From an uncultured Ignavibacteriales bacterium (GTDB taxonomy: Bacteria > Bacteroidota > Ignavibacteria > Ignavibacteriales > Ignavibacteriaceae), in assembly GCA_903929035.1 (NCBI GenBank), contig CAIYTF010000109.1, forward strand, positions 1 to 34,186: 34,186 nt of DNA, given 5' to 3'. A program made the position numbers and the translations under genes. Below are positions 9,503-33,690 of the stretch, one piece after another. Position 1 is the stretch's first letter. Every line of letters starts with the position of its first letter. The notes beneath the pieces are model-generated. The model did not search any database and was not told the origin of the DNA. It saw nothing but the letters and a program-made list of their open reading frames with translations.

Positions 9503-10105
9503 ATGGTATGTATGGTACACAGGATTTTAGGTTTCGTAATATTCTTTTCATTACTTGTTTTCCCACAAAGCCCGATCAAGGCAAAGATTGGTGTTTTCGT
9601 GAATGACGCCGGCAAATTGCAGCTGCTTAAATCGAATGACAAGATGAAAGTGGGAACGCAATTCAGGGTATGTATTCAGAGTTTGGAGAAGGAATATATA
9701 TACGCTATCTACAGGGATAATAGTTTTACCTATCTCTTGAATAAAACGAACAGCACGACAATATACGAAGCAGATAAAAGCATTTTTCTTCCGTCAAAAT
9801 CGGAATTCTATTCGATAGATGATAAAAGCCCAAACATTCGGGTATTGGTTATATGCAGTAAAACAAAAATTGATGATATAGAGAAAACATTTGCCGGACA
9901 AAAAAAAATAGCAACATCTGAATGGACTGGATATGAAGAAAAGCTAATTAATTCCCGGAAAAATATTTCTGAGCCGTCAGCTAAACCATTCTCTATAGCC
10001 GGAAATGTGCGCGGTGTTGGAGGCGACAATGTTTTCGATAAACTCCCGGTTCTCAGTGGAAAAGAGTTATTCATACGGAAATATGAGATTGAAGTGCAAA
10101 AATAA
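9503..10105 (+). CDS. Secreted DUF4384-like protein
   Basis: This 200-aa protein has an N-terminal hydrophobic signal (ILGFVIFFSLLVF, cleavage near PQS). Residues about 45-140 follow the DUF4384 pattern as I know it: KMKVGTQFRVCIQSLEKEYI, then YAIY, then an extended strand with LPSKSEFYSIDDKSPN, and a terminal strand VLVICSKTKIDDIEKTF. DUF4384 domains are often found with caspase or CHAT proteases, which fits the operon starting 217 bp downstream. Either ATG 9503 or ATG 9512 may be used; no Shine-Dalgarno is visible. It has its own promoter and is separated from the operon by a palindromic repeat, so co-transcription is uncertain. The last 40 residues (after SRKNISEPSAKP) match nothing I know. 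Confidence 0.7.
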   Translation: MVCMVHRILGFVIFFSLLVFPQSPIKAKIGVFVNDAGKLQLLKSNDKMKVGTQFRVCIQSLEKEYIYAIYRDNSFTYLLNKTNSTTIYEADKSIFLPSKSEFYSIDDKSPNIRVLVICSKTKIDDIEKTFAGQKKIATSEWTGYEEKLINSRKNISEPSAKPFSIAGNVRGVGGDNVFDKLPVLSGKELFIRKYEIEVQK

Positions 10106-10215: not shown

Positions 10216-10321
10216 CACCTAGTCTCGTTTATAAATTAAGGAACGAATAACAATTGCTATCCTCCGGTTTCAATCCGGCAAAGATGGCTGTTGGTTTTTA
10301 AAAAATAATCTAAAGGAAAAT

Positions 10322-12106
10322 ATGTTACGTGCATTGTTTATTACTTTCTTGATGTTTTTTTCTGTCTTTCATTTCGATATTTTAGGGCAGAATAATTCGC
10401 TTAAAATTTCTGACAGGATTGATTTGCTTTCTTCCAAAATTACTAACCAAAGCACTGATCCGGAACTGAAAAAACAGTTGATCTTCGAATATATTAGTAT
10501 GGATGAGCCTGAATTGGCTCTATTGGAAATGAACGATCTGAACGGTAACAGCCAAATCAACTACGAGCTGATAGAAGCCGGAGCCGATATCCATTTCTAT
10601 ATGGAGAATTTTGAAGCAAGTTTGGCTAATTTCAAATCAGCTTATATATTTAACCCGACAACTGAAAATCTGAAGAAGATTTTATTACTTAATTATTTCC
10701 TTCAAAAAAAAGAAAGTATTCCGCCTATGCTTTCTGATTTGAAGAAAAGGGATACCGCGTTTGTAAAGAGTTTGGGACAAATCTTTCAGAAAGCTCATTT
10801 TAATAAGAAGATTATTCTGGCTGCAAAAGTCGAACGATTTATAAAAGAATACTGCGGTAATGAATATTCAGCAATTTTTCCCAACCCAACCGTTTCCATA
10901 ATTTCTCCGATGAAAAATGTTTCAACAAATTCACGTGCAATTCCATTGACATTTACGGTGAATCACGCCCGGCAGATACAGTCCATCACGGTAAATGGGA
11001 AAGCTGTCTATACTATTAAACCGGACGATGTCAATAAGCCGATATATTTTGAAAAGACATTCAATGTTCCTGTTGATTTGCACGAAGGGGAAAATACGAT
11101 CGGGGTAAAAGCTGAAGATGCTCTCGGGCTAAACGATCAGCAGCAAATTACTGTCTATTGTACCGATTTTCCGCGACTTGCCGAATGGACATCGGTGTAT
11201 TCTGATACCCTTACTAAGTACTTTCGCTATATAAAGAGTTTCGTTCCTGATTCAAGTTATTCGCACGCGCACGCGGAGAATCAGAAGCTGATAGTCATTT
11301 CCACCTCGGAAGGTGCTGATATAGCCGCATTTCAAAAAGGGCTATTCTGGTATGATTTGTTTACACATCCATACTCGGGATTTGTTGATGAAAATAACAC
11401 TAAATTCATCAATATTGAACGAGCGACTACGGCAAATATTGATGTTGTTCTGAATGACTGGCTGCTGAAAAATATGACACTTCAAAGTATAACTAATGTT
11501 TACATTAACGCGGATTGGAAAATAAACGCGGCAGAATGGACTATCAAGATGAAAGACAATAGTTTTTACGATGCCCGGGCAATGATTAAAAAGATATCCA
11601 AGATTACTGCTTCCGGTTTGAATTTTATTATAGATGGGAAAATAGATAATCCGGAATTATTATATCGCGGAGTCGCGGAGATGGTGCAGGAAATCCGCAT
11701 CCCGTGCGCGATCATTTCGCTTTGCACGACAGATTATGTGCCGGTTTTGTGTAATATGATAGCAGCTCCGGATAGTATAGTAAGTGAAGAAAAAGAATTA
11801 TTGCCGGAGAATATGGCAGGTCATATCCCGCTTGCGCGATTATGGAAAAATGAATTTGTACAGCCGCGAATAATAACTAACGCTGCCGCGTTAGTCAGAA
11901 GCAGCTATGCCGAAATGCTTGCAGGGATAGATATAAAACTGAAACGAGATAAAGCCGGCGCGGCTCAGAAAAAAAAGATTCATACTTACATACAGGATTG
12001 GCGCAGATATAGCGAGGTAAGCCGCTACCTTTCAAATTCAATGAGCTTGCAGGACCTCTTAGACCACGCGGATGAGTATTTAACCAGAACAAAGGCGGAG
12101 AACTGA
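10322..12106 (+). CDS. Exported TPR/Ig/caspase-like protein, catalytic residues missing
   Basis: First gene of a five-gene operon, with a good ribosome-binding site (AAAGGA) before ATG 10322. Residues 1-22 are a signal peptide (ending ILGQ). Residues about 45-175 are helical and TPR-like. Residues 189-280 form an Ig-like domain of the type with PTVSIISP, SITVNGKAV and LHEGENTIGVKAEDALG, which in related bacterial proteins often precedes a caspase (C14) domain. Residues 322-470 then follow the caspase order: strand LIVIST, the segment ERATTANIDVVLNDWL, strand TNVYI and strand LNFIID. Where active caspases have SGHG this protein reads NADW (396-399), and where they have DxCxSG it reads DGKID (438-442). 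It would thus be a pseudo-caspase. The caspase relationship is my inference from pattern and architecture. Its neighbour CHAT protein has an intact related fold. It ends 2 nt before the next gene. Confidence 0.65.
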   Translation: MLRALFITFLMFFSVFHFDILGQNNSLKISDRIDLLSSKITNQSTDPELKKQLIFEYISMDEPELALLEMNDLNGNSQINYELIEAGADIHFYMENFEASLANFKSAYIFNPTTENLKKILLLNYFLQKKESIPPMLSDLKKRDTAFVKSLGQIFQKAHFNKKIILAAKVERFIKEYCGNEYSAIFPNPTVSIISPMKNVSTNSRAIPLTFTVNHARQIQSITVNGKAVYTIKPDDVNKPIYFEKTFNVPVDLHEGENTIGVKAEDALGLNDQQQITVYCTDFPRLAEWTSVYSDTLTKYFRYIKSFVPDSSYSHAHAENQKLIVISTSEGADIAAFQKGLFWYDLFTHPYSGFVDENNTKFINIERATTANIDVVLNDWLLKNMTLQSITNVYINADWKINAAEWTIKMKDNSFYDARAMIKKISKITASGLNFIIDGKIDNPELLYRGVAEMVQEIRIPCAIISLCTTDYVPVLCNMIAAPDSIVSEEKELLPENMAGHIPLARLWKNEFVQPRIITNAAALVRSSYAEMLAGIDIKLKRDKAGAAQKKKIHTYIQDWRRYSEVSRYLSNSMSLQDLLDHADEYLTRTKAEN

Positions 12107-12108
12107 AT

Positions 12109-12849
12109 ATGAACCGATTATTATTCATTATCGTTTTTGTTGTCTTATGCTATCAGCCCGTTTTTAGTCAACCTGTTATACATTCATTTGTCAGTTCCCA
12201 ATTTTTTCGCGTTAATGATCTGGGCAAATCAAGAGAAGATTACCGCGACCTGATGAAAGATATTCAAGAGCTTATGCCGCTTTTCGCGGGTAAGCAGCCT
12301 ATTTTCAATCATCTGTTTGTTGGTGATAGTGCATCTCCGAGGTTAGCACTTGATGAATTTGGACAAATCAGCCTGCAGACGGATTCAACTTCATTTGTTG
12401 TACTGCACTTTTTTAGTACTTGGTTCAAGAGACGCGATGAATGGAATTCTGAGGTATCAAAGGGTGAAGTCATTTCTCTTAAATATCTTGAATATTTCTC
12501 TGAATTTATCAAACCGGAAAGCGGATTAATTGTTTTGCTAAGCCCCGCGAATGAGGGACTTTTGCAGGATAAAATGTCGGAATCAGAATTTAACCTTAAT
12601 GGAGGGAAACAGCTTATGATTATTAGCTATCCTGCAGATATGTCTTACTTTGATGCAATGAAACAATATATTAAAGCATTGAGGTCGTGTACAAAGGATG
12701 ACGAAGCAGATTTAAATAAAGATCGTGTAATTACTTTTAGCGAAAGACTGCTTTCACTTAAAAAATATTTAAATGAACGCGAACTATCAGCAGTATTTTA
12801 TCAATTATATCCCGGTACCAACCCTGTTATCGGTGTACTGGATAAGTAA
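12109..12849 (+). CDS. Exported small caspase-like protein, catalytic residues missing
   Basis: Second gene of the operon, 2 nt after its neighbour. This 246-aa protein has a signal peptide (residues 1-20, ending PVFS). From residue 91 the strand order resembles the large subunit of secreted caspase/C13-like proteins: FVVLHFF (usually followed by SGHG, here STWF), GLIVLLSPANEG (where a DxCxSG would be expected), KQLMIISYPAD, and an Asp-rich segment EADLNKDRVITFSERL of the kind seen near the end of such domains. Neither the catalytic His nor the Cys is found. I see no other assignable motif. The family call is a hypothesis; the export signal and operon position are clear. The next ATG lies 1 nt after its stop codon. 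Confidence 0.55.
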   Translation: MNRLLFIIVFVVLCYQPVFSQPVIHSFVSSQFFRVNDLGKSREDYRDLMKDIQELMPLFAGKQPIFNHLFVGDSASPRLALDEFGQISLQTDSTSFVVLHFFSTWFKRRDEWNSEVSKGEVISLKYLEYFSEFIKPESGLIVLLSPANEGLLQDKMSESEFNLNGGKQLMIISYPADMSYFDAMKQYIKALRSCTKDDEADLNKDRVITFSERLLSLKKYLNERELSAVFYQLYPGTNPVIGVLDK

Positions 12850-12850
12850 T

Positions 12851-15676
12851 ATGAAAATATCAATATACATTTTTATCGTACTCTTTACAGGCGGGTTATT
12901 CTCGCAAAGCCAATATCACTTGACAATGAACGGGATTGATTTTAACCGATTTCCGCTTATAGATTTGTATTACACGATTTCGGATCCAAATGGCAACCCG
13001 CCGGATCCCGGTAAAGTAAAAAATCTATCGGGTTATGAAATTTCCCTGAATGACAAAAGTGTTGCTCCCGCGGAAGTTACTTCTATTTTGGATTTGAAAA
13101 CAGCATCTCAGACCGAATTGTATGTAGCATTGGTCTTTGATAATTCGGCATCGATGTATTCGAGGATAGACGCGTTAGAAGATGCTGCGCGGGTTTTCGT
13201 GAACGGGCTGCAGCAAGGGGATTACGCGTGCATTATTGATTTTGGTGATGAGGAAGTAACTCAGGAAATACCGGAATTTCCAAAGCCGATATTTTCTCGA
13301 ATGCGGCAGGATTTCAGTAATTCGCAGTTGATACTGAATAAAAAGATTAAAACCCCGACTTTTACTGCAAGTACCTATATGTATGATGCGCTTCTCTATG
13401 GTTTATCGGTGTTAAATACAACAAATGTTTTAGGAAAGAAAGCCTTGATTTTCTTTTCTGATGGAAATAATATTGGTTCTAAATCAGATTTTGACGCGGT
13501 GGAAAAGTATGCATTACAGTACGAGATACCGATTTACGCGATTGACCTGAACCAGCGGAAAAATCAGGTGCTTGAGCGTTTGGCGAAAGAAAGCGGAGGA
13601 GAGTATTTTTACGTGGAATCTCCGGAAGATTTACGACTGCTTTACGCTTCTTTAGTCAAGCAGCTTAGAAACCAGTTCCGTGTCGCGGTGAAGTCCCCCT
13701 TCGATTTCTTAAACACTAACCGGTATAGTGCATCAATACAAAAGGAGATAGACAGCAGCCAATTACGTGATACCAAAACTTTTACTGTTGATGGAGAAAA
13801 ACTGGGATATACAACTTTGGTTTACTTGGAAAGTACAGGTAAAGAAACAGCTAAGAATTATTTCGATTATCTGAACCGCTTTCCAAAGTTGTCATACAGG
13901 GATAATGTTGAATTGAGGCTGGGAGATTATTGGACTCGTCACGGGGAATACCCGAAAGCAATGTCTGTTTACAATCGTATTCTCAGGAATCCGCAGAGTC
14001 CTTCTTATGAACAGGCGGGCTTTCAGAAAGCAAAATTACTTGAGATGGCAAAGGACTATCAAGGCGCAAAAAATTTATATCAGAGCCTTTCACACAGCTC
14101 AACAGTTAATAACATTAAAGCCAAATCGAGTATCAGTTATGCAAACCAATTAGTGGTTGAGGGTAATTACAAGGTGGCTTATGATGAATATACCCGAATT
14201 ATAGCTGAGAATGAAGGAACTGATTATGCCACTGAAAGTTTGTATCGCCGCGCAGACCTGAATAAAAAAATGAAAAATCTCGATAAAGCCGTGGAGGACT
14301 ATACCACTCTCAATCAGCAATACAAGAACTCCAAGTACGCGAATGACGCGACATACGAGCTGGCGGATATCAACCTATCTAAAAAAAATTATACACAGTC
14401 AGAGACATTATTCAAGGAGCTGATTGGGAATACGGCAGAGCCGGATATTAAGGCTAACGGCTATATTAAACTGATTGAATTGTATGAATCCACAAAACAG
14501 TTTGAAAAGGCTGCAGTCGTAGCTGATACATTAGCTGCTACATCGCAGGTATTCGCATCAGACCCAAAGTATCGCGGTAAAAAGATAGAGTATGAATACA
14601 ATAATCAAAATTTTGCAAAAGGAAAGGAAGTATTCGAGAACAGCACACCGGAAATACAGCAGTCACTTAAGGCAAAATCTTTCTTGTTACCTGCTGAAAA
14701 CCCGCGGAAAACAGTTTTTTATAACGGGGCTTCTATTGGATTTATTGGCAGCTCCCAGGAGAAACCGCCGCTTAGCGGAGTCTATTCCTCGGAACTAAGC
14801 AAAAAGTATAAGCTCCTCGAGCCGGCTTATAACGTGGATACATCGCTTGGTACGCGTACATCCGACAGCCTTTCAGTAACAATTCCTATCCGCAAAGAAT
14901 GGGTTACTAATAAATTAATAGATCCCTCAACTGCCGGAATTTATTACGCGCGGGAAAATACAATGGAAGCAATACCCTCCCGGTTTAATGCCAAGGATTT
15001 AACCATTTCATTTGAACCGCGTGGAAATGGTCTATACGCGCTACTGACAGAGAAACCTAAGGTAATCACTCTTTATAATGTATATTTTGACCCAAATCAG
15101 GCAACCATTCGAAAGGATGCAGAAAAAAATCTTTATGAAATGATAGATTATCTAAAAAATTCGCCTGAACTTAGAATAGAGATTACAGGTTATACTGATT
15201 CAACAGGAACAGATGAGCGGAATATTCAATTATCAATGGAACGCGCAACATCAATACGCGATTTTATGGCAAAAAACGGTATTGATAAAGCACGGTTCAC
15301 GGTTCGCGGATATGGCAGCTCGTATCCGATTGCTGCAAATACAACAGAAGAAAACAGGCAAAAAAATCGGCGCACGGAATTCGCGATTCTCAGTACTTCA
15401 ATAAATACTACCGCTATTGCCTCCACGGCAAAAGATAGGCAAAGGTTTGCTGTTATTGTTAAAACTTTCGATGATATGAAAACTGCTTATGAGCAGCGGA
15501 GGTATTTTAACCAACGCGGTTATAAGTCATCCGTTATAATTAATCCAAAAGCGAACGGCAGCGAATTTGATCTTGTTTTATGTATCTTGAATACCGAAGA
15601 AGAAGCTAAGCAGGAAATCCGAAAATTTTCAGAAGAATATAAACAAGGTTATTCATTAAAAATAAAGCAGCTTTAG
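12851..15676 (+). CDS. VWA-TPR-OmpA-SPOR envelope protein
   Basis: The chosen start is ATG 12851, just after the preceding stop, because it gives a clean signal peptide (MKISIYIFIVLFTGGLFSQS); the frame is open further upstream. The product is 941 aa. Residues 89-275 are a von Willebrand A domain with a complete-looking MIDAS (DNSAS 97-101, TAST near 172-175, SDG 203-205). Residues about 350-600 are TPR repeats. Residues 737-848 are an OmpA-like domain (VYFDPNQATIR, TGYTDSTGTDERN, RRTEFAI) that binds meso-diaminopimelate peptidoglycan in known homologues. Residues 863-940 match a SPOR domain (RFAVIVKTFDDMKTAYEQRR with GSEFDLVLC), which binds denuded glycan strands. It is therefore probably a periplasmic scaffold attached to the wall by two domains and able to bind a partner through VWA and TPR. 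Confidence 0.85.
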   Translation: MKISIYIFIVLFTGGLFSQSQYHLTMNGIDFNRFPLIDLYYTISDPNGNPPDPGKVKNLSGYEISLNDKSVAPAEVTSILDLKTASQTELYVALVFDNSASMYSRIDALEDAARVFVNGLQQGDYACIIDFGDEEVTQEIPEFPKPIFSRMRQDFSNSQLILNKKIKTPTFTASTYMYDALLYGLSVLNTTNVLGKKALIFFSDGNNIGSKSDFDAVEKYALQYEIPIYAIDLNQRKNQVLERLAKESGGEYFYVESPEDLRLLYASLVKQLRNQFRVAVKSPFDFLNTNRYSASIQKEIDSSQLRDTKTFTVDGEKLGYTTLVYLESTGKETAKNYFDYLNRFPKLSYRDNVELRLGDYWTRHGEYPKAMSVYNRILRNPQSPSYEQAGFQKAKLLEMAKDYQGAKNLYQSLSHSSTVNNIKAKSSISYANQLVVEGNYKVAYDEYTRIIAENEGTDYATESLYRRADLNKKMKNLDKAVEDYTTLNQQYKNSKYANDATYELADINLSKKNYTQSETLFKELIGNTAEPDIKANGYIKLIELYESTKQFEKAAVVADTLAATSQVFASDPKYRGKKIEYEYNNQNFAKGKEVFENSTPEIQQSLKAKSFLLPAENPRKTVFYNGASIGFIGSSQEKPPLSGVYSSELSKKYKLLEPAYNVDTSLGTRTSDSLSVTIPIRKEWVTNKLIDPSTAGIYYARENTMEAIPSRFNAKDLTISFEPRGNGLYALLTEKPKVITLYNVYFDPNQATIRKDAEKNLYEMIDYLKNSPELRIEITGYTDSTGTDERNIQLSMERATSIRDFMAKNGIDKARFTVRGYGSSYPIAANTTEENRQKNRRTEFAILSTSINTTAIASTAKDRQRFAVIVKTFDDMKTAYEQRRYFNQRGYKSSVIINPKANGSEFDLVLCILNTEEEAKQEIRKFSEEYKQGYSLKIKQL

Positions 15677-15683
15677 GTGGGTT

Positions 15684-18600
15684 ATGAATATCATCCGGAT
15701 TCGTTCACGGTTAATGAGATTAATTATATTGGTCTTCATTTTATCTTCAGCAGTATTACCGCAGTCTCTAAGTGTAAAATGGGAAAAAGTTAATAATTTC
15801 TATGAAACAGAAGTTTATGATTCTGTAATTACAAATATGCCTGAGCTATTGAGGGATTTTGAGAATGCAAAGCTCGATTCTCAATTAGTAACAGCCTGCC
15901 ATTATTTGGAGATGTCTTTATTTAGGGCCGGGCAGGACAGGAGTGCTGATTCGATTCGGCAGACAGCGGAACTATTTGCACAAAAACATTCACTTTTGGC
16001 ATTGATGGCTGATTACATACAGGAGCGCAATTGGATACTCCTTGATATAGCCAGTGGTTTACAGAAACGGGATTCACGGACTAAACAGGTGACAAATTCC
16101 GGACGCGTGCTGGCTATATTGCATCGAATAATCATTACGCCGGATGATTCGCTTTCTTTAACACCGAAGTTACGTGCTTACGCGCTTTCAGGGCAGATAC
16201 TAAAAACGGCTAATCAGACGGCAGGTATTACTGACGCGCTTAAGCCGGCGTTGAAACTTGTTCACGCTGATGATACGGTAAATGTAAACGAGATAAAAGC
16301 AATTCTGCGGTTTCTTTCAGAGTCATACTTAACCCGTGGCGATATCGAGGAAGTTTACTTGTTGATGAATGATTTTGGCTATCGTCCAAGCTACAGGGAT
16401 ATTATAACTTATTCAGCCAAGTTTCTCAATTCTCCTAAAGGGAATGAATTTGATCGTTTGTTTACAAGCCTGCGTGATAACTATCTTTTTTCGCCTTATG
16501 ATTCCATTGCTTTCGATTATGTTATATCGCGTTTTGTAATGGAGTCCCGTCTTTATAATATTAATGCTGCAATTGACAGCCTGCAATCAACCATTGTATA
16601 TCTTGAAACATCGCGTGATACGACAGGAACTTTGTTGTTTAATGTTTATCAAATGTATATAAAGAAATGCTTAGAAAATTTTATGGTCGCGCAATCCGCT
16701 TGGGCATTTAACATACTCGAACGAAGATACACCAGCTCAACAATTTCCGGTGATTTGAGGTCCGCTTTGGTTTCACTGAAAGGAGATATTCTGGCAATAC
16801 GCGGGGAGTATATGGAAGCGGAAAAACTGTATTTAAAACAGCTGCCATCACTAAATTTACTCAAGCCTATAGAGCGGCTCTCGCTGTTGAATAACCTTGG
16901 ATTATGTCAAACGGCATTAGGGAAAGTACCCGAAGGCAGCGAGACATTTGGCTTGCTGAAAACGCAAGTTTCTCTTATTTCCGATACATCAGCAAGAATC
17001 AAGGAATTTCTTATCCTCGCGAATCTGAATGAAGGTATCCTCTTTCTTCGAAACGATAAGCCGGATAGTGCTATTACCCAATTTAAAGAGGGACAGCGTA
17101 TAGCAAAGGAGATGAATTTTTCTTCTTACACAGCCCTGTTTTATATTCGGTTAGCCGATGCTTTTCGTTCGAAAGGGTACACGCGGCAAGCATCGGAAAT
17201 GTTTGACTCATTACGCGCCACCCTGAATATATTAACCGAACCATTCAAAAAGATGCAGATATATGAGTCCCTTGCCGCTTTCGAGTCTGAAAAAGGAAAT
17301 ACAGAACAGAGCTTAGATTATTACAGCGAAGCTTTGCTGCTTGCAGAGCGCAATGCTTTCAGCGGCGCAAAGATTAATCTCGCGGGGAGCATCGCGGATG
17401 TATATTTACAGTGTGACAGTCTCAGGAAAGCACTCGGTCTTTTTCGTGTTGTCCGCGAAGCCGTTGAGCGAAATGGCAGTAAGGTTGACCGATATTATCA
17501 GAATCTAAAAATGGCTTTAGTCTTTTTGAATACGAATGAGTTTGATTCGTCAAGGACTTACATCGGGAATTGTTTTAATCTTCTAACTGATAGATCGAAT
17601 CCTAATATTGATTCACTTGCATCGTTAAAAGTTCAATATCCTTACCTTTTGACTTTAACGATTAGTTTGCTTGCCGAGGTAAATTTTTATGAAGGACAGA
17701 CGTATGCCGATTTCAGGAAAATAAAGCTTGCTTATAGTCAGGCGCAGCGCGCGGTGGAATATAATAAGGCAAATTTTGCTGATGTTTTTACTTACCAAGG
17801 CGAGTCAACCCAATTTTTGAAATCTGTCGATTGCTATAAGGTTCTCATTGAAATCGCGCTTCATTTGTATGAAAAGACAAATGACGATGAATATATGAAA
17901 GGGGCATTTGACGCGTGTGAAAATTCCCGTTCACAGGCATTTGTTTCTGAAATCGGCTCGAAAGTATTTTTCAACATACCTGAGACACAGGTTGATACAG
18001 CGGAAGTTGTTCAGCATATTAGCAAGACTATGAAGAGAAAAAAAAATCAGGTGATGGCAAATGCAGGTGAGATTAATCCGTATTCGCGCCGCAGGGATAT
18101 TGATGTCGTGCAAGATACAACAAGGGATGTTTTGAAAGAACAGCAGCAATACAACGAATATATTAACTCTCTCAAGAAAACCAATACAAAGACGGCAGGA
18201 TTGCTTTCGCCTGATGTAAACGTGTTAAGTATTAAAGGAATTGCAACATCCCTTGCGGAGGATGAAGTTTTATTAAACTATTATGTATCGCGAAACCGCA
18301 CTTATTTATTCTATATTACCAATTCGGATTCCCGCGTTATTTCAATTCCTTTGGATGAGAAAACAATAGCTGAAATGTGCGAAACTTACCGGATGGTGCT
18401 GCAAAACAAGGGAGATACGTCCGATATGTCGCGCGGGTTCAAGACTCTTGGACAGTCTGAAAATAAAAAAAAGATCGAGCAAAATATAGGGCTGAGCTGG
18501 CAGTTATATAATTATCTGATCGCGCCTGTTGAAAAAGATATTGTAAACAAAAAATTGTTGATTGTTCCGAGCGGTGCTTTGCACGCCATTCCTTTCAGTT

Positions 18601-19310
18601 CGCTAATGAATAAGCAGAAAAAATATCTTATTGAAACGAATTCTGTTTCCGTGTTGCCCAACGCGAGTGCCATTCAATTGATATTAAAAAATATAAAATC
18701 GGAAAGCAGCAGGAATGTACTTGCTTTTGGAAATCCGGATTGCGGTGATATTGCCTCTCCTTTACCGGGTGCAGAGGCTGAAGTAAATATGATAGCTTCA
18801 TATTTCCCAAAATCATCGGTTTTTATCGGGGCAGATGCCCAAGAGCGAAAAGTTAAAGACCTAATTTCTAATTATTCGATTATTCACTTTGCCTGTCACG
18901 GGGTTTTTAATGGCGACTATCCGCTGCTTTCAAGGCTGCTTCTTACGGCTGGGAATAATGAAGATGGGAATCTTGAACTGCGTGAATTGTATAACTTGAA
19001 ACTTAGCAAGTGCAATCTCGTGGTGCTATCGGCGTGTGAATCCGGATTGGCGAAAGTAAAAAAGAATGATGACTTGATAGGCTTGGTCCGCGGATTCCTC
19101 TATGCCGGTTCACCCGGTGTTATTGCAAGTTTATGGAAGGTTGATGACGCGGCAACTTCTTTTTTGATGGAGCGGCTTTATTTTTACTTGAGTAATAATT
19201 TTTCGAGGGGTGAAGCACTGCAGAAAGCGCAGATGGATACTATGCAGTCCCCATTATTTTCGCATCCATATTTTTGGTCGGCATTCCAGTTAAATGGTGT
19301 CGGGAGATAG
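15684..19310 (+). CDS. Exported TPR-CHAT protease
   Basis: This 1208-aa protein is the catalytic member of the operon. The N-terminal segment LMRLIILVFILSSAVLPQ is a signal peptide. About 800 residues of TPR-like helical pairs follow (for example LGLCQTALGKVPEGSETFGLL and ADAFRSKGYTRQASEMF). The CHAT domain (PF12770, a caspase-fold cysteine protease family) runs from about residue 855 to the end. It has LPGAEAEVNMIASYF, IIHFACHG with His1072, and LVVLSACESG with Cys1118, so the dyad is intact, and it ends HPYFWSAFQLNG, a typical CHAT terminus. AGGTGG lies only 3 nt before ATG 15684, so ATG 15714 (inside the same leader) is an alternative start. TPR-CHAT proteases include the CRISPR-linked Csx29, but this one is predicted to be exported and has no cas neighbours. 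Substrate is unknown. Confidence 0.88.
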   Translation: MNIIRIRSRLMRLIILVFILSSAVLPQSLSVKWEKVNNFYETEVYDSVITNMPELLRDFENAKLDSQLVTACHYLEMSLFRAGQDRSADSIRQTAELFAQKHSLLALMADYIQERNWILLDIASGLQKRDSRTKQVTNSGRVLAILHRIIITPDDSLSLTPKLRAYALSGQILKTANQTAGITDALKPALKLVHADDTVNVNEIKAILRFLSESYLTRGDIEEVYLLMNDFGYRPSYRDIITYSAKFLNSPKGNEFDRLFTSLRDNYLFSPYDSIAFDYVISRFVMESRLYNINAAIDSLQSTIVYLETSRDTTGTLLFNVYQMYIKKCLENFMVAQSAWAFNILERRYTSSTISGDLRSALVSLKGDILAIRGEYMEAEKLYLKQLPSLNLLKPIERLSLLNNLGLCQTALGKVPEGSETFGLLKTQVSLISDTSARIKEFLILANLNEGILFLRNDKPDSAITQFKEGQRIAKEMNFSSYTALFYIRLADAFRSKGYTRQASEMFDSLRATLNILTEPFKKMQIYESLAAFESEKGNTEQSLDYYSEALLLAERNAFSGAKINLAGSIADVYLQCDSLRKALGLFRVVREAVERNGSKVDRYYQNLKMALVFLNTNEFDSSRTYIGNCFNLLTDRSNPNIDSLASLKVQYPYLLTLTISLLAEVNFYEGQTYADFRKIKLAYSQAQRAVEYNKANFADVFTYQGESTQFLKSVDCYKVLIEIALHLYEKTNDDEYMKGAFDACENSRSQAFVSEIGSKVFFNIPETQVDTAEVVQHISKTMKRKKNQVMANAGEINPYSRRRDIDVVQDTTRDVLKEQQQYNEYINSLKKTNTKTAGLLSPDVNVLSIKGIATSLAEDEVLLNYYVSRNRTYLFYITNSDSRVISIPLDEKTIAEMCETYRMVLQNKGDTSDMSRGFKTLGQSENKKKIEQNIGLSWQLYNYLIAPVEKDIVNKKLLIVPSGALHAIPFSSLMNKQKKYLIETNSVSVLPNASAIQLILKNIKSESSRNVLAFGNPDCGDIASPLPGAEAEVNMIASYFPKSSVFIGADAQERKVKDLISNYSIIHFACHGVFNGDYPLLSRLLLTAGNNEDGNLELRELYNLKLSKCNLVVLSACESGLAKVKKNDDLIGLVRGFLYAGSPGVIASLWKVDDAATSFLMERLYFYLSNNFSRGEALQKAQMDTMQSPLFSHPYFWSAFQLNGVGR

Positions 19311-19314
19311 ATCA

Positions 19315-20904
19315 ATGATATTTATCTTGATGTTTATCAGTCTTTCATCAAGCATTTGGGCACAGCCGGATTGGGTATCCGGCGGCGGTATTTCGGTAGG
19401 TTTCCCAACTTCAACTTACATAACCGGCTTTGGTATTTGTAAGGTAACGGATTCGGTGGATAAAATAAAAGCACGGGCAATGGCTTTGGAAATCGCCCGC
19501 GGTAATTTAGCTGAAAAAGTACTGGTTACTATATCGAATAATATTACTTCAAAAAAGGAGGAGTCCGATGCACGAGTATCGGAATATTTTTCAAATGTAA
19601 CGCAATCGCGTTCAACGCTTCACGTTACAGGCTTGCAGGAAAAAGCACCTTACTATGACGAGGATGAAGAACAGTATTATGCTTTAGTTTATGCCGAAAG
19701 AGAAAACCTAATTAATTCTTATACTGATAACATAAATCAGCTGGCACTTGAGATTAAAAATAAAACTGCCGCGGGGAAAAAACTTGAGCAGGATAATAAT
19801 AATGAAGCGGCTCTGAAAGAATACCTTTCCTGTCTTTCGCTTTATTCCCAATATGATGAGATGGCTGCTATCCGAAAAGCACTTTCAACAGATGCCGTGC
19901 TAATGTTAGAGGAATCGGAACAAAAGCAGAATATTCAGGAATTCCCGCCGTCTATTGGCGGCATTAACGAGAGTATTGCACGAATCGTTAACCGTCCCAT
20001 AAAAACAATTGAAGATGTTATCTGGTATATCGTGCATTGTTTGGATGAAAAGATCGGTCACGGGCTTAAAAAAGTAATGGTTGATCCGTTTGTTTACGCG
20101 GATACCCGTATGTCGGGTTCGTTTTCAAGATATTGCAGAGAATCTTTGGAGCAATCTTTTGCTGTTAAACTTGGCTGGGATATTATTAAACTGAATCAAA
20201 ATAGTATAGAGCAAACTTTAGTATTGAGCAGCGGACAGAAACCGGATCAAGTTTGCGGGCATATTGTTTCAGGGTCGTTCTGGGAGCAGGGTGATAAAGT
20301 TGTCTGCAAAGCCCGCTGCGTAAGTACTGCCGAGAACAAGATAATTGCCGGTGTTGAGTTTTCCTTTGACAAAAAAATATTGGAAACAGCCGGAATGAGT
20401 TTGAAGCCTCAAAATTACCAAGAAGCTCTTATTGACCAAAAGATTTTCGCGCAGGGTGAAATCATTGACGGCGGTCTCCGCGTGGAAGTTATGACCAATA
20501 AAGGGGCTGACAATATTATATTTAATGAAAATGATTCTATGCGTGTATTCCTGCGCGTAAATTTGCCGTGTCATATCCGCCTAATCTATCACCAAGCCGA
20601 TGGCGCGCGCGTACTGCTGCTTGATGATTTATTTATTGATGAGGCAAAAGTAAATAAATGGTTCAATCCGCAGGGGGCATTGGGCACTTTTATATGCGCA
20701 GCACCGTTTGGTGCGGAAGTTTTGCAGGTAAACGCGCAAACCGCCGAGTTTGATAAGCTGGAAACAAAGCATATTGATGATTTAGCTGTAATCATAGGCG
20801 ACCTTAAAGAGGCAGTCAATTCAACCCGCGGTATGAAAAAGATGACGAATATGAAAATGCGTGCCGAGACACGGATAGTGATGACAACAATGGGGGAGAG
20901 GTAG
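19315..20904 (+). CDS. Exported LPP20/DUF4384-like protein
   Basis: Last gene of the operon. ATG 19315 is chosen over ATG 19294: GGGAG lies 8 nt upstream and the product then starts directly with the signal peptide MIFILMFISLSSSIWAQ. The product is 529 aa. Residues about 20-140 match the LPP20/FlgT-N type fold (YITGFGICKVTDSVDKIKAR, then EIARGNLAEKVLVTI). The middle part, about 205-375, resembles bacterial proteins that assemble a CsgG/TolB-like nucleotide-binding fold, though this is weak. Residues about 385-500 are DUF4384-like (ENDSMRVFLRVNLPCHIRLI, then DGARVLLL). The tail with TRGMKK and AETRIVMTTM is basic and methionine-rich. No lipobox cysteine follows the signal, so it is probably soluble in the periplasm or secreted. 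Confidence 0.78.
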   Translation: MIFILMFISLSSSIWAQPDWVSGGGISVGFPTSTYITGFGICKVTDSVDKIKARAMALEIARGNLAEKVLVTISNNITSKKEESDARVSEYFSNVTQSRSTLHVTGLQEKAPYYDEDEEQYYALVYAERENLINSYTDNINQLALEIKNKTAAGKKLEQDNNNEAALKEYLSCLSLYSQYDEMAAIRKALSTDAVLMLEESEQKQNIQEFPPSIGGINESIARIVNRPIKTIEDVIWYIVHCLDEKIGHGLKKVMVDPFVYADTRMSGSFSRYCRESLEQSFAVKLGWDIIKLNQNSIEQTLVLSSGQKPDQVCGHIVSGSFWEQGDKVVCKARCVSTAENKIIAGVEFSFDKKILETAGMSLKPQNYQEALIDQKIFAQGEIIDGGLRVEVMTNKGADNIIFNENDSMRVFLRVNLPCHIRLIYHQADGARVLLLDDLFIDEAKVNKWFNPQGALGTFICAAPFGAEVLQVNAQTAEFDKLETKHIDDLAVIIGDLKEAVNSTRGMKKMTNMKMRAETRIVMTTMGER

Positions 20905-21065: not shown

Positions 21066-21168
21066 TGCTTAGGGCTTGTTCATAAATACCCTTAACACTT
21101 TCTCGCGCGAAGACCGCAAAGGTTAGATTTTGAAGATGTAAAGGTTATTTCTTTACAAGGACTTAATG
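21066..21168 (+). repeat. Dispersed palindromic repeat, copy 4
   Basis: It shares TGCTTAGGGCTTGTT with copy 2 on the left and ctTTACAAGGACTTA with copy 1 on the right. The core is CTCGCGCGAAGACCGCAAAGG. The inner arms AAATACCCTTAACA and TGTAAAGGTTATTT pair at 11 of 14 positions. Its last bases provide the TAA stop codon (21163-21165, minus strand) of the following convergent gene. The stretch 20905-21065 before it holds nothing I recognise. Confidence 0.88.
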
Positions 21169-22239
21169 ATAGTTTGCAGCTCCAATACCCAGGAAATACT
21201 TTGTTGAAATTCCCATCGTGAGGTTTCCGTTACTCCCGATAATACTCCATACTCCCGGAGAGAATGTACCATATTTTAGTACACCCGGATAAACATCAAT
21301 TGAACAAAAATACTCTTTTATACCGCAAAAAATAATTGAGCCTAATAGCGAATTTTTTCTGTCCCAGAAAGCACCAGCCTGCCAGCTTGTTTCAATTGTC
21401 CTTTCTCTTAATTCCGGATTTAAATCAACAAGGTGTTTTGTTCTAAACCCTATTCCAACTGAAAAATTATCCATATTTTCAAGTTTTTTTGAAAGACCAA
21501 ATAAAGCACCCATACCGAAGCGGTTAAAAAACGAGTAATCTTCAGAGAACGGCAGTTTCCATTTAATTGAAAAGAATTGACCGGCATTTATTCTGTAGGA
21601 AGGAGAAGAAACCGAGGCTTGAAGAGACCAATCCGATAGATTCAGTTTCTCGCTAAAAAATTCATTTATTCCATCAAAGCTAAAGAGAATGATCCCGCCT
21701 AAATCGAAAAGATAGATATCCGCTATTTCATCAACACTATATCCCTCGTAAGGACCTGTTTCCATCGTTTCATTCAGTAGATGCATAGTCATAAGTGTTG
21801 TCGCGGACATTAGCCAGGGGTATGGAAAATTATGCAGGTCATACCACTCTCGGACTGCAGTTGAGAGCATACCGCACCCCATTAGATGCAGTTGATAATT
21901 TGGTATCCAGGGAGCTGTTTCTTTTGACATTGCAGTTGGGAACAGTTCCTTAATAAATTTAGATGTACCATAGTATTTTATCCGCGGGAACGGATCACCG
22001 AGATTCAGGAGTACATTATGAAACATTCTACCGTACAGGTGGTCACCCAAACGATTTGAAACCGATTGTAGTTGAGTAATGTCAAATCCGCCATTTATAA
22101 TAACCGTTAAAGGGTTTAATAATGATTCGCTGCCATACTCTTTACCGGTATAGAAATAATATTTCTTTTGAGCAGTTAGTTTTGAATTCATCATTAGAAA
22201 ACAAAAAAATGCAGCGAGAATAAAACCGGTATATTTCAT
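21163..22239 (-). CDS. Unknown exported protein with probable membrane-associated segments
   Basis: The start at ATG 22239 gives a 358-aa product with a signal peptide (MKYTGFILAAFFCFLMM to LTAQ); an upstream TTG at 22272 would fall inside a small repeat and is less likely. The central segment is distinctive: LHLMGCGMLSTAVREWYDLH, then MHLLNETMETGPYEGYSVDEIADIY and FDLGGIILFS. I remember a group of uncharacterised Bacteroidota proteins with a similar H-G-G-x-E-E-W and N-E-x-x-E plus D-x-I-A-D pattern, but no named function. The C-terminal third is rich in aromatic and glycine residues in alternating strands (IKWKLPF, GIGFRTKHL, WQAGAFW, MGISTKYFLGIG), suggesting an outer-membrane barrel portion. 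Both ends abut repeats: copy 4 supplies the stop codon and the 56-bp element lies 9 bp before the ATG. Confidence 0.7.
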   Translation of the reverse strand: MKYTGFILAAFFCFLMMNSKLTAQKKYYFYTGKEYGSESLLNPLTVIINGGFDITQLQSVSNRLGDHLYGRMFHNVLLNLGDPFPRIKYYGTSKFIKELFPTAMSKETAPWIPNYQLHLMGCGMLSTAVREWYDLHNFPYPWLMSATTLMTMHLLNETMETGPYEGYSVDEIADIYLFDLGGIILFSFDGINEFFSEKLNLSDWSLQASVSSPSYRINAGQFFSIKWKLPFSEDYSFFNRFGMGALFGLSKKLENMDNFSVGIGFRTKHLVDLNPELRERTIETSWQAGAFWDRKNSLLGSIIFCGIKEYFCSIDVYPGVLKYGTFSPGVWSIIGSNGNLTMGISTKYFLGIGAANYH

Positions 22240-22248
22240 ATAAAAATT

Positions 22249-22304
22249 GTAATTGTTTAGGTCAATAAACAAAACATACTCGTTTTTTTAACCTAAACAG
22301 TTAC
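22249..22304. repeat. 56-bp element with 14-bp inverted ends (IS66-like ends)
   Basis: The left end GTAATTGTTTAGGT (22249-22262) and the right end ACCTAAACAGTTAC (22291-22304) are inverted copies that differ at one base. The same right end occurs exactly at 34047-34060 beside the IS66-like transposase remnant. From memory IS66-family ends begin with GTAA. The bases between the ends are AT-rich and non-coding. I see no flanking 8-bp duplication. The element contains the TAG stop of the glycosyltransferase gene at 22293. Confidence 0.65.
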
Positions 22305-30456: not shown

Positions 30457-33400
30457 ATGGAACATATTGATAGTGAATCAGAATCGGCGAACCTCCGCGA
30501 GGAAGCAGAAGAGATGCGGAAAAAGGGGGCTGCCCAAATAGTTTCCCGGCTTACTGAGTCTGCTATGAAACTTGTTCAGGAACTGCAGGTGCAAAAAACC
30601 GAGCTTGAACTTATGAACGATGAATTCAGGGTGGAAAAGGAGCGTGCCGAAGCTGCCTCAAAGACCGCGAAAGCCACTATCGATAAATATACTGAATTGT
30701 ATGATTTCGCTCCTTTTGGTTATTTTACTCTTTCCAAAGAAGGGAATATTGTTGAATTAAATCTAATGGGGGCGCAGCTGCTTGGCAAGGAACGCTCGCG
30801 TTTAATAAACAGCCGTTTTGGATTTTTTGTCACTGACGATACAAGACCGGCATTTAATCTCTTTCTAAAAAAAGTATTTACCGGCAAATCCAAAGTAAGC
30901 TGCGAGATAACATTATTGTTTAATGACAGCCTGCCAATGAATGTTTACATTGAAGGACTCGCTGCTAAAAATATAGAACAATGCATTTTATCGGTAGTTG
31001 ATATTACCGAGCAGACACGGATGAAAGCGGAGAAAGAGACCCTTTTATACAATCTCAACGAGAGGGTTAAAGAGCTGCAATGCTTATACAGGATTTCGTC
31101 AATTGTTGAAATTCCTAATATTTCATTTTCCGAAATGATGCAGCAAATAGTCGAGGAGATAAGGTCCGGATGGCAATTCCCCGATATTACTTGTGCCCGA
31201 ATAGTAATCGATATGGACGATTATAAGACCGCTAATTACAAAGAAACAAAATGGAAACAATCGTCCAAGATTAAGGTAAATAGTAAGGAAGCCGGCCGCG
31301 TTGAAGTATTCTATTTGGAAGAGAGAGCCGAAAGCGATGAAGGACCATTTCTAAAAGAAGAAAAAACCTTAATAAATGCCATTGCTCAAAGGTTAGGGCA
31401 CATCACCGAGGGCTACAAGGCAGAGGAACAAATTAAACAAACTGAAAACAGGCTGAAGAGTTTAGTGGAAATTCTTCAGTATGAATCAAATACTATACAA
31501 GAATTTCTTGATTATGCTCTCCACGAAGCCATAGATTTAACACTAAGTAAAATTGGCTATATATATCATTACAGCGAGGCGAAAAAGGAATTTATATTAA
31601 ATTCCTGGTCAAGGGAGGTAATGAAAGAATGTACTATCGTAGAAGCACATACTGTTTACGAACTTGATAAGACGGGGTTATGGGGAGAGGCTGTCCGCCA
31701 GCGAAAACCCATTATTGTAAATGATTTTCAATCACCGAATCCTCTTAAAAAAGGTTATCCTGAAGGCCATTCCCACTTGAATAAATACTTAACCGTGCCA
31801 ATATTCAGGGGCGTTGAAATTGTTGGTGTTGTGGCAGTTGGCAATAAAGAAACAGATTATATAGAATCCGATGTTATTCAGCTTTCTTTACTTATGGAGT
31901 CGGTATGGAAAGTTGTTGATAGGAAACAGGCAGCAGAAGATTTGCGGGAAAGTAATGAACGGCACCGTATTTTTATTGAACAATCGCCTATCGCCATTGA
32001 ACTTTACAATTCAAAAGGCTTGCTTGTGAGTGTTAATCAAGCGTGCATTGAATTGTTCGGGGTAATAGATGCAAACGAGCTTATGGGTTTTTCTCTTTTT
32101 GATGACCCGAATATATCTGATGAGCACAAAAATGAATTAAGACTTGGCAAAAATATCCGTTATCAGGCAGTTTTTGATTTTGATAAAGTAAAGAAATTAA
32201 ATCTTTATCAAACCATAAAATCAGGGCAAATCTTTATTGATACAATTATTACGCCAATAAAAGACAGCCGTGAAAAGATAAGTGAGTATTTGCTGCAGAT
32301 TCAAGACATCACCGAGCAAAAGAGGGATGAGTCTTATAGCGAGATGGGTAGAGAGGTGCTGCAAATTCTTAACGAGTCCGGTCCTCTGCAGGGTGCGATT
32401 CAGCGGGTACTTAACGCTTTGAAGACCGGTACGGGTTTCGATGCCGTGGGTATTCGGCTGAAAGAGGGGGACGATTATCCATATATGGTTCAGGAAGGTT
32501 TTTCAAATAGTTTTTTGATGTCCGAAAATACGTTAGTTGAGCGTGATGCAAACGGCGGGGTGTGCCGTGACAGCAGCGGCAATATAAGTTTGGAATGTAC
32601 TTGCGGGTTGGTGATTTTGGGCAAGACCGACCCTGCTAATTCTCTCTTCACTAGAGGCGGAAGCAGTTGGACTAACGATTCATTTCCTTTTCTTAAAGTT
32701 CCTGCCGATCAGGATCCGCGTCATCATCCCCGGAATGTATGTATTCACCAAGGATATGCCTCTGTGGCACTTGTGCCCATCCGTATGAAAGAAAAGATTG
32801 TTGGATTGCTGCAATTTAATGACCGCGGAAAAGGGCGTTTTTCTCTTGCCGCGATTGAACAGTTGGAAAGCATAGCCGTGCATCTGGGCGAGGCATTAAC
32901 GCGCAAACAGGCTGAAGAAGAAATTAGATTAAAAAACGAACAAATTATTGCTCTAAATTCTGAAGAAATCAGTGTAAAAAACAGCCAGCTGCAAGAACTC
33001 AATGCTTCCAAGGATAAATTATTCTCAATTATCGCGCACGATTTAAGAAGCCCGTTCACCGGTTTGCTTGGTTTATCGGAAATTATGGCATCCGAAAGTG
33101 ATTCATTCTCTTCAGCTGAAATAGCTAAATTCAGCAGCTCATTGCATACATCGATAGTAAATGTATATAAATTAATAGAAAATTTATTAGAATGGGCGCA
33201 ATTCCAAAAAGGCTTAATCCCGTTTACTCCAGTTGAACTCTGCCTGCTTGATGTTTATTTGGAAAGCAAAGAATCTATCAAACAAAGAGCATTGCAAAAG
33301 GGAATTACTATTATCAATGAAATTCCGGAAACTTATAAAATTTTCGCGGATGAAAATATGATTGATTCCGTCCTCAGAAATTTACTTTCTAACGCTGTAA

Positions 33401-33690
33401 AATTTACAAGTAATGGTGGAAAAGTTATCGGCAAAGCAAGAGAAGTAGAAGATGGGATGATTGAAATTTCGGTAACAGATACCGGCGTTGGTATTCCTGC
33501 AGATACTGTCGATAAGCTGTTCAAAATAGGTGAAAATGTGGGAACCACCGGAACCGATAATGAACCCAGCACAGGTTTGGGCTTATTGCTCTGTAAAGAA
33601 TTTGTCGAAAAGCACAGCGGTAAAATATGGGTTGAAAGCGAAGATGGCAAAGGAAGCACGTTTTTCTTTACACTCCCGAAAATTTGTTAA
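30457..33690 (+). CDS. Multi-sensor histidine kinase (PAS-GAF-GAF-PAS-GAF-HisKA-HATPase)
   Basis: This 1077-aa cytoplasmic sensor kinase has no predicted membrane span. Order: an N-terminal coiled coil (about 1-75), PAS (76-187), GAF-like (205-320), GAF (335-490), PAS (500-622), GAF (630-815), a short coiled coil, HisKA with phospho-acceptor His861 (SIIAHDLRSPFTG), and HATPase_c with N-box RNLLSNAVKF (Asn979), DTGVGIP and GLGLLLC. The third GAF contains a cysteine set (Cys703, Cys714, Cys716, Cys762) within the conserved blocks GVCRD, LECTCG and NVCIHQGYASVA. I know this block pattern from other multi-sensor kinases. The cysteines could bind a metal or sense redox state. There is no receiver domain or adjacent response regulator, so it is an orphan kinase. 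AGGAAG 5 nt before ATG 30457 supports the start. Confidence 0.93.
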   Translation: MEHIDSESESANLREEAEEMRKKGAAQIVSRLTESAMKLVQELQVQKTELELMNDEFRVEKERAEAASKTAKATIDKYTELYDFAPFGYFTLSKEGNIVELNLMGAQLLGKERSRLINSRFGFFVTDDTRPAFNLFLKKVFTGKSKVSCEITLLFNDSLPMNVYIEGLAAKNIEQCILSVVDITEQTRMKAEKETLLYNLNERVKELQCLYRISSIVEIPNISFSEMMQQIVEEIRSGWQFPDITCARIVIDMDDYKTANYKETKWKQSSKIKVNSKEAGRVEVFYLEERAESDEGPFLKEEKTLINAIAQRLGHITEGYKAEEQIKQTENRLKSLVEILQYESNTIQEFLDYALHEAIDLTLSKIGYIYHYSEAKKEFILNSWSREVMKECTIVEAHTVYELDKTGLWGEAVRQRKPIIVNDFQSPNPLKKGYPEGHSHLNKYLTVPIFRGVEIVGVVAVGNKETDYIESDVIQLSLLMESVWKVVDRKQAAEDLRESNERHRIFIEQSPIAIELYNSKGLLVSVNQACIELFGVIDANELMGFSLFDDPNISDEHKNELRLGKNIRYQAVFDFDKVKKLNLYQTIKSGQIFIDTIITPIKDSREKISEYLLQIQDITEQKRDESYSEMGREVLQILNESGPLQGAIQRVLNALKTGTGFDAVGIRLKEGDDYPYMVQEGFSNSFLMSENTLVERDANGGVCRDSSGNISLECTCGLVILGKTDPANSLFTRGGSSWTNDSFPFLKVPADQDPRHHPRNVCIHQGYASVALVPIRMKEKIVGLLQFNDRGKGRFSLAAIEQLESIAVHLGEALTRKQAEEEIRLKNEQIIALNSEEISVKNSQLQELNASKDKLFSIIAHDLRSPFTGLLGLSEIMASESDSFSSAEIAKFSSSLHTSIVNVYKLIENLLEWAQFQKGLIPFTPVELCLLDVYLESKESIKQRALQKGITIINEIPETYKIFADENMIDSVLRNLLSNAVKFTSNGGKVIGKAREVEDGMIEISVTDTGVGIPADTVDKLFKIGENVGTTGTDNEPSTGLGLLLCKEFVEKHSGKIWVESEDGKGSTFFFTLPKIC

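Follow-up and report, generated by a model that had tools for sequence, protein, structure and literature searches.

Catalytically dead caspase relatives include the caspase-like domain of Raptor, which is a substrate-recruiting scaffold, and FLIP(L), a cytosolic human protein. The heterodimer of FLIP(L) with caspase-8 is active and energetically favoured (PMC7586951). Csx29, the TPR-CHAT protein of type III-E CRISPR systems, is separase-like and joins a pseudo-caspase half, CHAT1, to an active half, CHAT2 (PMC10028731). In one survey, pseudo-orthocaspases make up 8.6% of bacterial caspase homologues (Bacteroidetes, 10/1078); they were found by p20 homology, 90% of them belong to the Alphaproteobacteria and Cyanobacteria, and most carry Tyr-Ser type replacements (PMC6426788). 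Bacterial pseudo-caspases are known, then, either singly or as the built-in half of Csx29.

The locus considered here lies in a window of 34,186 nucleotides, contig C109 of a 222-contig Ignavibacteriales genome (Table). Genes A, B, V, C, and E follow one another closely, with gaps of 1–7 bases or with overlaps: B starts 2 bases past the end of A, and E overlaps the end of C. Hydropathy and inspection by eye identify a hydrophobic amino-terminal stretch of the signal-peptide type in all five proteins and in the upstream protein D. Two other genes in the window may be recorded. One encodes a long GAF/PAS histidine kinase (1077 aa, 30457-33690), unrelated to the A-B run; the other is a 369-aa open reading frame on the minus strand (21163-22272), which has no Pfam match at E<=1e-3 and adjoins two glycosyltransferase-family-9 genes.

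Table. Features of the gene run, in window coordinates
Feature	Description	Position	Strand	Basis
Gene D	Predicted exported, DUF4384-like (below cut-off, E 0.016)	9503..10105	+	Pfam
Stem-loop	Terminator-like, between D and A	10275..10294	+	Pattern match only
Gene A	594 aa: predicted export signal, TPR-like helices, Ig-like domain, caspase-like pseudoenzyme domain, C-terminal helices	10322..12106	+	Open reading frame
Ig-like domain of A	Residues 189-279; Glucodextran_B, PF09136	10886..11158	+	Pfam E 7.4e-8, over cut-off
Caspase-like pseudoenzyme domain of A	Residues 319-525 (model range about 39-245)	11276..11896	+	AlphaFold2, Foldseek, VIA-align
Lost His site of A	NADW, residues 396-399, with D398 in place of the His and W399 in place of the Gly after it	11507..11518	+	Alignments
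Lost Cys site of A	D438-G439-K440, with K440 in place of the Cys	11633..11641	+	AlphaFold2 model, alignment
C-terminal helical region of A	Contains invariant W560	11897..12103	+	Homologue alignment, AlphaFold2 model
Gene B	246 aa, predicted exported second pseudo-caspase	12109..12849	+	AlphaFold2, Foldseek, VIA-align, alignment, hhalign
His-Gly site of B	T104-W105	12418-12423	+	hhalign, alignment
Cys site of B	P146	12544-12546	+	hhalign, alignment
Gene V	941 aa from ATG at 12851; predicted exported VWA-TPR-OmpA protein	12851..15676	+	Pfam OmpA E 4.2e-25, VWA E 2.5e-8
Gene C	1208 aa, predicted exported TPR-CHAT protease	15684..19310	+	Pfam CHAT E 4.6e-74, TPR_12 E 2.2e-10
Gene E	Predicted exported, LPP20-like and DUF4384-like (both below Pfam cut-offs)	19294..20904	+	Pfam

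A preliminary description of this DNA had proposed that protein A carries, behind an Ig domain, a caspase-like domain lacking both catalytic residues. The peptides on which that proposal was built all occur in the 594-aa reading frame: LIVIST (residues 323-328), ATTANIDVVLNDWL (368-381), TNVYI (391-395), NADW (396-399), LNFIID (433-438), and DGKID (438-442). The Ig assignment is confirmed by the Pfam match ahead of the caspase-like region. The TPR-like helices are matched by Pfam in two homologues of A (L002 and L003), and in the window protein itself they are not.

Sequence profiles are silent about the caspase-like domain. The Pfam C14 model (PF00656), against which the preliminary description had suggested aligning the domain, detects neither A nor B in the window at E<=1, nor any of six homologues of A at E<=10. 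Scans of A and B with NCBIfam gave no caspase match, and profile searches of the PDB with A or B returned no caspase. Profiles alone would not have revealed the domain, and the caspase reading therefore required a structural test.

That test, also suggested in the preliminary description, supports a caspase fold. Residues 281-594 of A were modelled with AlphaFold2 from an alignment of eight homologous sequences (mean pLDDT 86.4 and pTM 0.82 for the best of five models; the other four, 73-83). The predicted order of elements, beta1-alpha-beta2-alpha-beta3-hairpin-alpha-beta4-alpha-beta5-alpha-beta6, is that of caspases. A Foldseek search of the PDB yielded 12 matches at E<=1e-3, and every one is MALT1, Arabidopsis metacaspase 9, or Dronc. 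With VIA-align, the best solved match is metacaspase 4 (6w8r; Z 14.2, 192 residues aligned at rmsd 3.0 Å). A Geobacter protein, 3bij, is a bacterial match (Z 13.0, rmsd 3.0 over 179 residues), and 303 of the 1000 aligned chains reach Z >= 8. Residues 319-525 are thus predicted, with good confidence, to adopt the caspase-haemoglobinase fold of clan CD. The span first proposed (11285-11735, ending at residue 470) was too short, as the range aligned by VIA-align extends it to about 319-525 (11276-11896).

Active C14 peptidases carry the histidine of an (S/A)GHG motif after beta3, and the cysteine of a DxCxSG motif after beta4. In the model of A, the strands beta3 and beta4 run as far as residues 396 and 438, respectively, where caspases bear these residues. 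The replacements originally read there, NADW for SGHG and DGKID for DxCxSG, fall at just these points: NADW sits where beta3 stops, and DGK where beta4 does. Profile alignment (hhalign) of A with five bona fide C14 domains encoded in carrier genomes also sets NADW on AGHG, weakly (E 0.0074, probability 5%). Loss of the catalytic residues is well supported as a property of the whole family. Both are missing in 8/8 homologues of A, with D, P, P, S, E, R, E, and E at the His position and K, E, E, L, E, Y, K, and S at the Cys position; W399 is kept in 5/8. The Tyr-Ser type of replacement, common but not defining among pseudo-orthocaspases, is absent in A, which has D and K in the window protein and variable residues in its homologues. 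By predicted fold and by residue loss, A is a pseudo-orthocaspase in the published sense of a p20-type domain without the His-Cys dyad (PMC6426788); its p20 homology is undetectable by Pfam, so this membership rests on the predicted fold.

By its predicted structure, B is a second, more diverged pseudo-caspase. The AlphaFold2 model, built from seven homologues, is of moderate confidence (pLDDT 70.7, pTM 0.73, with some loops below 50). Foldseek returned 101 matches at E<=1e-3, and all 50 of those listed belong to clan CD, including caspase-9, MALT1, and a fungal metacaspase. VIA-align again places metacaspase 4 first (Z 11.7, rmsd 4.1 over 186 residues). The moderately confident model thereby has the clan CD caspase fold. 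Profile comparison of B with C14 (hhalign E 7.5e-4, probability 25%) aligns T104-W105 with the His-Gly pair and P146 with the Cys. Neither W105 nor P146 varies among the seven homologues, all of which lack both catalytic residues, and the active C14 arrangement is consequently absent from 8/8 sequences of A and 7/7 of B. At the place of the Gly-His-Gly of active enzymes, A and B share a tendency to Gly-x-Trp. Profile comparison of the two (E 0.1) does not show a common origin, and this tendency is their only shared trait.

Protein C has the composition of a TPR-CHAT protease: a CHAT domain with its His and Cys, and TPRs ahead of it. The catalytic motifs are intact (H1072 in HFACHG, C1118 in LSACES) and are kept in all six aligned homologues; to judge from these motifs, C is apparently a working protease. 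The occurrence of pseudo-caspase B and this intact TPR-CHAT protein in the same run had escaped the preliminary description. V is predicted to anchor in peptidoglycan through its OmpA domain. The run was also considered as a known anti-phage defence system, and this was ruled out. PADLOC models gave no match to A, B, C, D, or E at E<=0.01, and in V only the OmpA/MotB-type domain is matched, by the ZorB MotB models.

Relatives were sought in four overlapping genome samples: the order (164 genomes), the class (391), the phylum (395), and the order of genome G450 (98). A full-length homologue of A is present in 7/164 genomes of the order. The class sample gave 8/391, the same seven plus G450, where the copy of A ends at a contig edge; the phylum sample gave 2/395, both among those seven, and the G450 order 1/98, G450 itself. 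These homologues are only 20-28% identical to the window protein. At E<=1e-3 the A profile reaches 23/164 genomes: the seven full-length matches (>=415 bits) and 16 short stretches of 18-27 bits. Twelve of the short matches cover TPR-region positions only. The other four were discarded by eye as unrelated, being an alpha-amylase-like and three glycosidase-like proteins (L023, L025, L026, and L028). One further short match, of 28 bits, was found in the class sample (G339). Searching genome contigs with patterns from A found no relative; a search with a two-sequence alignment found two, both in Ignavibacteriaceae/Ignavibacteriales metagenome-assembled genomes that are the query genomes or their equals. 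Viral contigs, plasmids, and phages contained no relative of A, and hence there is no sign of a mobile element.

Comparison of these genomes establishes that A, B, V, and C are one conserved gene run in Ignavibacteria. B occurs in the same 7/164 genomes as A. Full-length V is likewise found in these seven, and 40 of the 47 genomes with any match to V are matched only around the OmpA domain. C, scored at E<=1e-60 among the best first-look candidates, is present in six of the seven carriers and in no other of the 164 genomes. In four relatives (G007, G032, G053, and G139), a small gene and then a cyclase gene precede A, B, V, and C, in that order. In G024 the A-B-V-C run has no adjoining cyclase. 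In G003, a cyclase gene clipped by the contig end precedes A, B, and V, and the best first-look candidates include no CHAT protein at E<=1e-60. The G003 run (L011, G003:C35, 3666-7306) is followed by an opposite-strand gene in place of the CHAT gene. As only those candidates were scored, a distant CHAT protein may be encoded in G003. As D does in the window, small genes for predicted exported proteins precede A in some relatives; those of G053 and G139 are DUF4384-like, below cut-off, and that of G007 has only a sub-threshold match to DUF7131. No counterpart of E was seen beside the relatives' runs.

The cyclase carries CHASE2 and cyclase domains, confirmed by Pfam in the G007 copy. CHASE2-cyclase genes are present in 16/164 genomes of the order, including all seven carriers of A (hypergeometric 2e-8, a value that ignores kinship). 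The gene adjoins A in 5/7 carriers, the exceptions being G024 and the window genome. The copy in the latter is on contig C127 (G000:C127:1922-4051; 43% identity), near a gene on the other strand that is LexA-like by eye. G139 has two such genes (G139:C6:48937-51063 and G139:C29:55322-57364), one in the run and one elsewhere.

A and B share this gene cluster with an apparently working caspase relative, and the pair therefore probably controls or positions C. This suggests a model for an envelope-anchored assembly. V would use its OmpA domain to tether the assembly to the cell wall, and A and B would dock through their caspase folds, together with the TPR and Ig domains of A. The docked pair would then serve as regulatory or substrate-positioning partners of C, the sole intact protease, much as FLIP(L) acts on caspase-8, or as the pseudo-caspase half CHAT1 acts on the active half of Csx29. 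The CHASE2-cyclase, a periplasmic-sensing protein whose gene adjoins the run in most relatives and stands apart from it in the window genome, probably couples envelope state to cAMP. We infer regulation of C by A and B from gene neighbourhood, from co-occurrence, and from the FLIP(L) and Csx29 precedents; complex formation, the direction of regulation, the substrate, and the cAMP link likewise belong to the inferred part of the model. That the A-B pair regulates or positions the CHAT protease within such an assembly is judged slightly better than an even chance. A more specific version is put forward tentatively, at somewhat less than even chance: an exported caspase control module, in which A and B hetero-assemble on a wall-anchored VWA-OmpA platform, located at the cell surface or in the periplasm, and there switch or aim the TPR-CHAT protease, with coupling to the CHASE2-cyclase.

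A strict role in regulating CHAT is challenged by G003, which keeps A, B, and V with no CHAT protein detected. The pseudo-caspases might not act on CHAT at all and might instead be ligand- or peptide-binding sensors in an envelope complex of A, B, and V. This complex would feed the CHASE2-cyclase, and CHAT would be an optional effector. The strictly co-occurring core is indeed A-B-V (7/7 carriers), G003 retains an adjoining cyclase along with it, and the cyclase is present in every carrier. Set against this, C accompanies the core in six carriers and is found in no other genome of the order at E<=1e-60, and the cyclase also occurs in nine genomes without A, so that it is independent of A. A purely sensory function is accordingly rather unlikely, and regulation or positioning of C remains the preferred reading.

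Alternatively, A or B might still be an enzyme that uses other residues of the old caspase groove. Purifying selection on the domain could be read in this way, as could the D438-G439 pair of A, which is mostly conserved (D438 in 6/8 homologues, G439 in 7/8). However, the His and Cys positions of A each hold five residue types, the Cys position of B is an invariant Pro, and the caspase part of the A alignment has no invariant column at all. Nor does A have a conserved His or Cys to replace those lost: no column of the eight-sequence alignment has Cys in >=3 rows, and the sole column with His in >=3 rows is residue 529, outside the caspase core. The two observations that would have overturned the preliminary description, a predicted fold unlike that of caspases and a catalytic His/Cys pair elsewhere in the domain, were both looked for, and neither turned up. 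Retained catalysis by A or B is thus quite improbable.

The missing Pfam C14 match and the weak profile links might be taken to mean that the domain has some other three-layer alpha/beta fold, unrelated to caspases. This was rejected for both proteins on the Foldseek and VIA-align results, and is considered very improbable: clan CD accounts for 12/12 matches to A at E<=1e-3 and for all 50 listed for B, and Z scores of 14.2 and 11.7 exceed 7-8, the usual level when a model has no clear match. Moreover, homologue L018 contains LALVIGN, IIYYSGEL, and TVILD in order.

Substitution patterns bear on whether A is being maintained. They were taken from the closest pair, G007 and G032, which is 56% identical and has saturated synonymous sites (pS 0.78-0.89 across the domains of A); the caspase part of A has pN 0.33 versus pS 0.79, and B has pN 0.34 versus pS 0.84. 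The catalytic sites of A are lost in 8/8 homologues, yet its frame is open and pN is well below pS; A is therefore a pseudoprotease, as first proposed, and a kept one, with the gene retained under purifying selection. A neutral, decaying remnant of an Ig-caspase gene, to which the loss of both residues and the rapid divergence of the caspase part (the fastest-evolving in A, at 49% identity versus 61-63% elsewhere) might point, was rejected as scarcely credible in view of open frames in every homologue found, an unchanging arrangement with B and V, and a pN much lower than pS.

Regulatory or positioning partners of C, as A and B are most readily understood, can be set beside several described proteins. 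Similar in layout are secreted, active-looking orthocaspases of two carrier genomes, L046 of G007 and L045 of G450, in which Ig-like repeats (by eye) precede a C14 domain. They have YSGHG and DACFSG in the former and FAGHG and DACHSG in the latter. The class thus includes active-looking proteins with the Ig-caspase layout, in agreement with the architecture invoked in the preliminary description. A resembles them in placing an Ig-like part ahead of a caspase domain; unlike A, they have intact SGHG/AGHG and DAC motifs, are detected by PF00656, and lie in other genome regions. At E<=0.01, that model matches 5/8 carrier genomes and has no match in the window genome.

Like the pseudo-orthocaspases, A and B have a bacterial caspase fold of p20 type in which the dyad is replaced, and are presumed inactive; extra domains are possible in both groups. 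They differ from the proteins described in that survey in being invisible to C14 profiles, in the residues that replace the dyad, and in being paired in one run with a CHAT protease (PMC6426788). A and B escape these profiles, and surveys based on profiles therefore probably undercount such pseudoenzymes.

Csx29 offers the same ingredients of TPRs, a dead caspase half, and an active half (PMC10028731). C itself matches the Csx29 model only below threshold (E 4e-12, 45.8 bits versus a cut-off of 300). Unlike the parts of Csx29, A and B are separate proteins, all parts have predicted export signals, and there is no Cas gene among the window proteins scanned.

With FLIP(L), A and B share a dead caspase domain kept by selection beside an active relative; FLIP(L) differs in its recruitment through death-effector domains and in having a C14 caspase as partner, the partner and regulation of A and B being putative (PMC7586951). 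The likeness of B to Raptor, which is eukaryotic, is one of fold only: VIA-align lists the caspase-like domain of Raptor (PDB 5wbk, 7ux2) among the structures that match B (Z 11.1, 194 residues at rmsd 7.7).

Titles and abstracts retrieved by searches of the open-licence literature contain no description of such an A-B-V-C run, and the accessible part of PMC8195603 describes no pair of separate exported pseudo-caspases with an intact TPR-CHAT protein. What appears to be new here is the combination: a conserved run that joins an intact TPR-CHAT protein to two separate pseudo-caspases, both profile-invisible and predicted to be exported. If the control module exists as proposed, the envelope would have its own counterpart of caspase-8/FLIP(L) or of the pseudo-protease half of separase, split into separate proteins. 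The A-B-C run allows the idea of dead caspases as dedicated regulators of live ones to be tested directly, in the envelope rather than in the cytosol.
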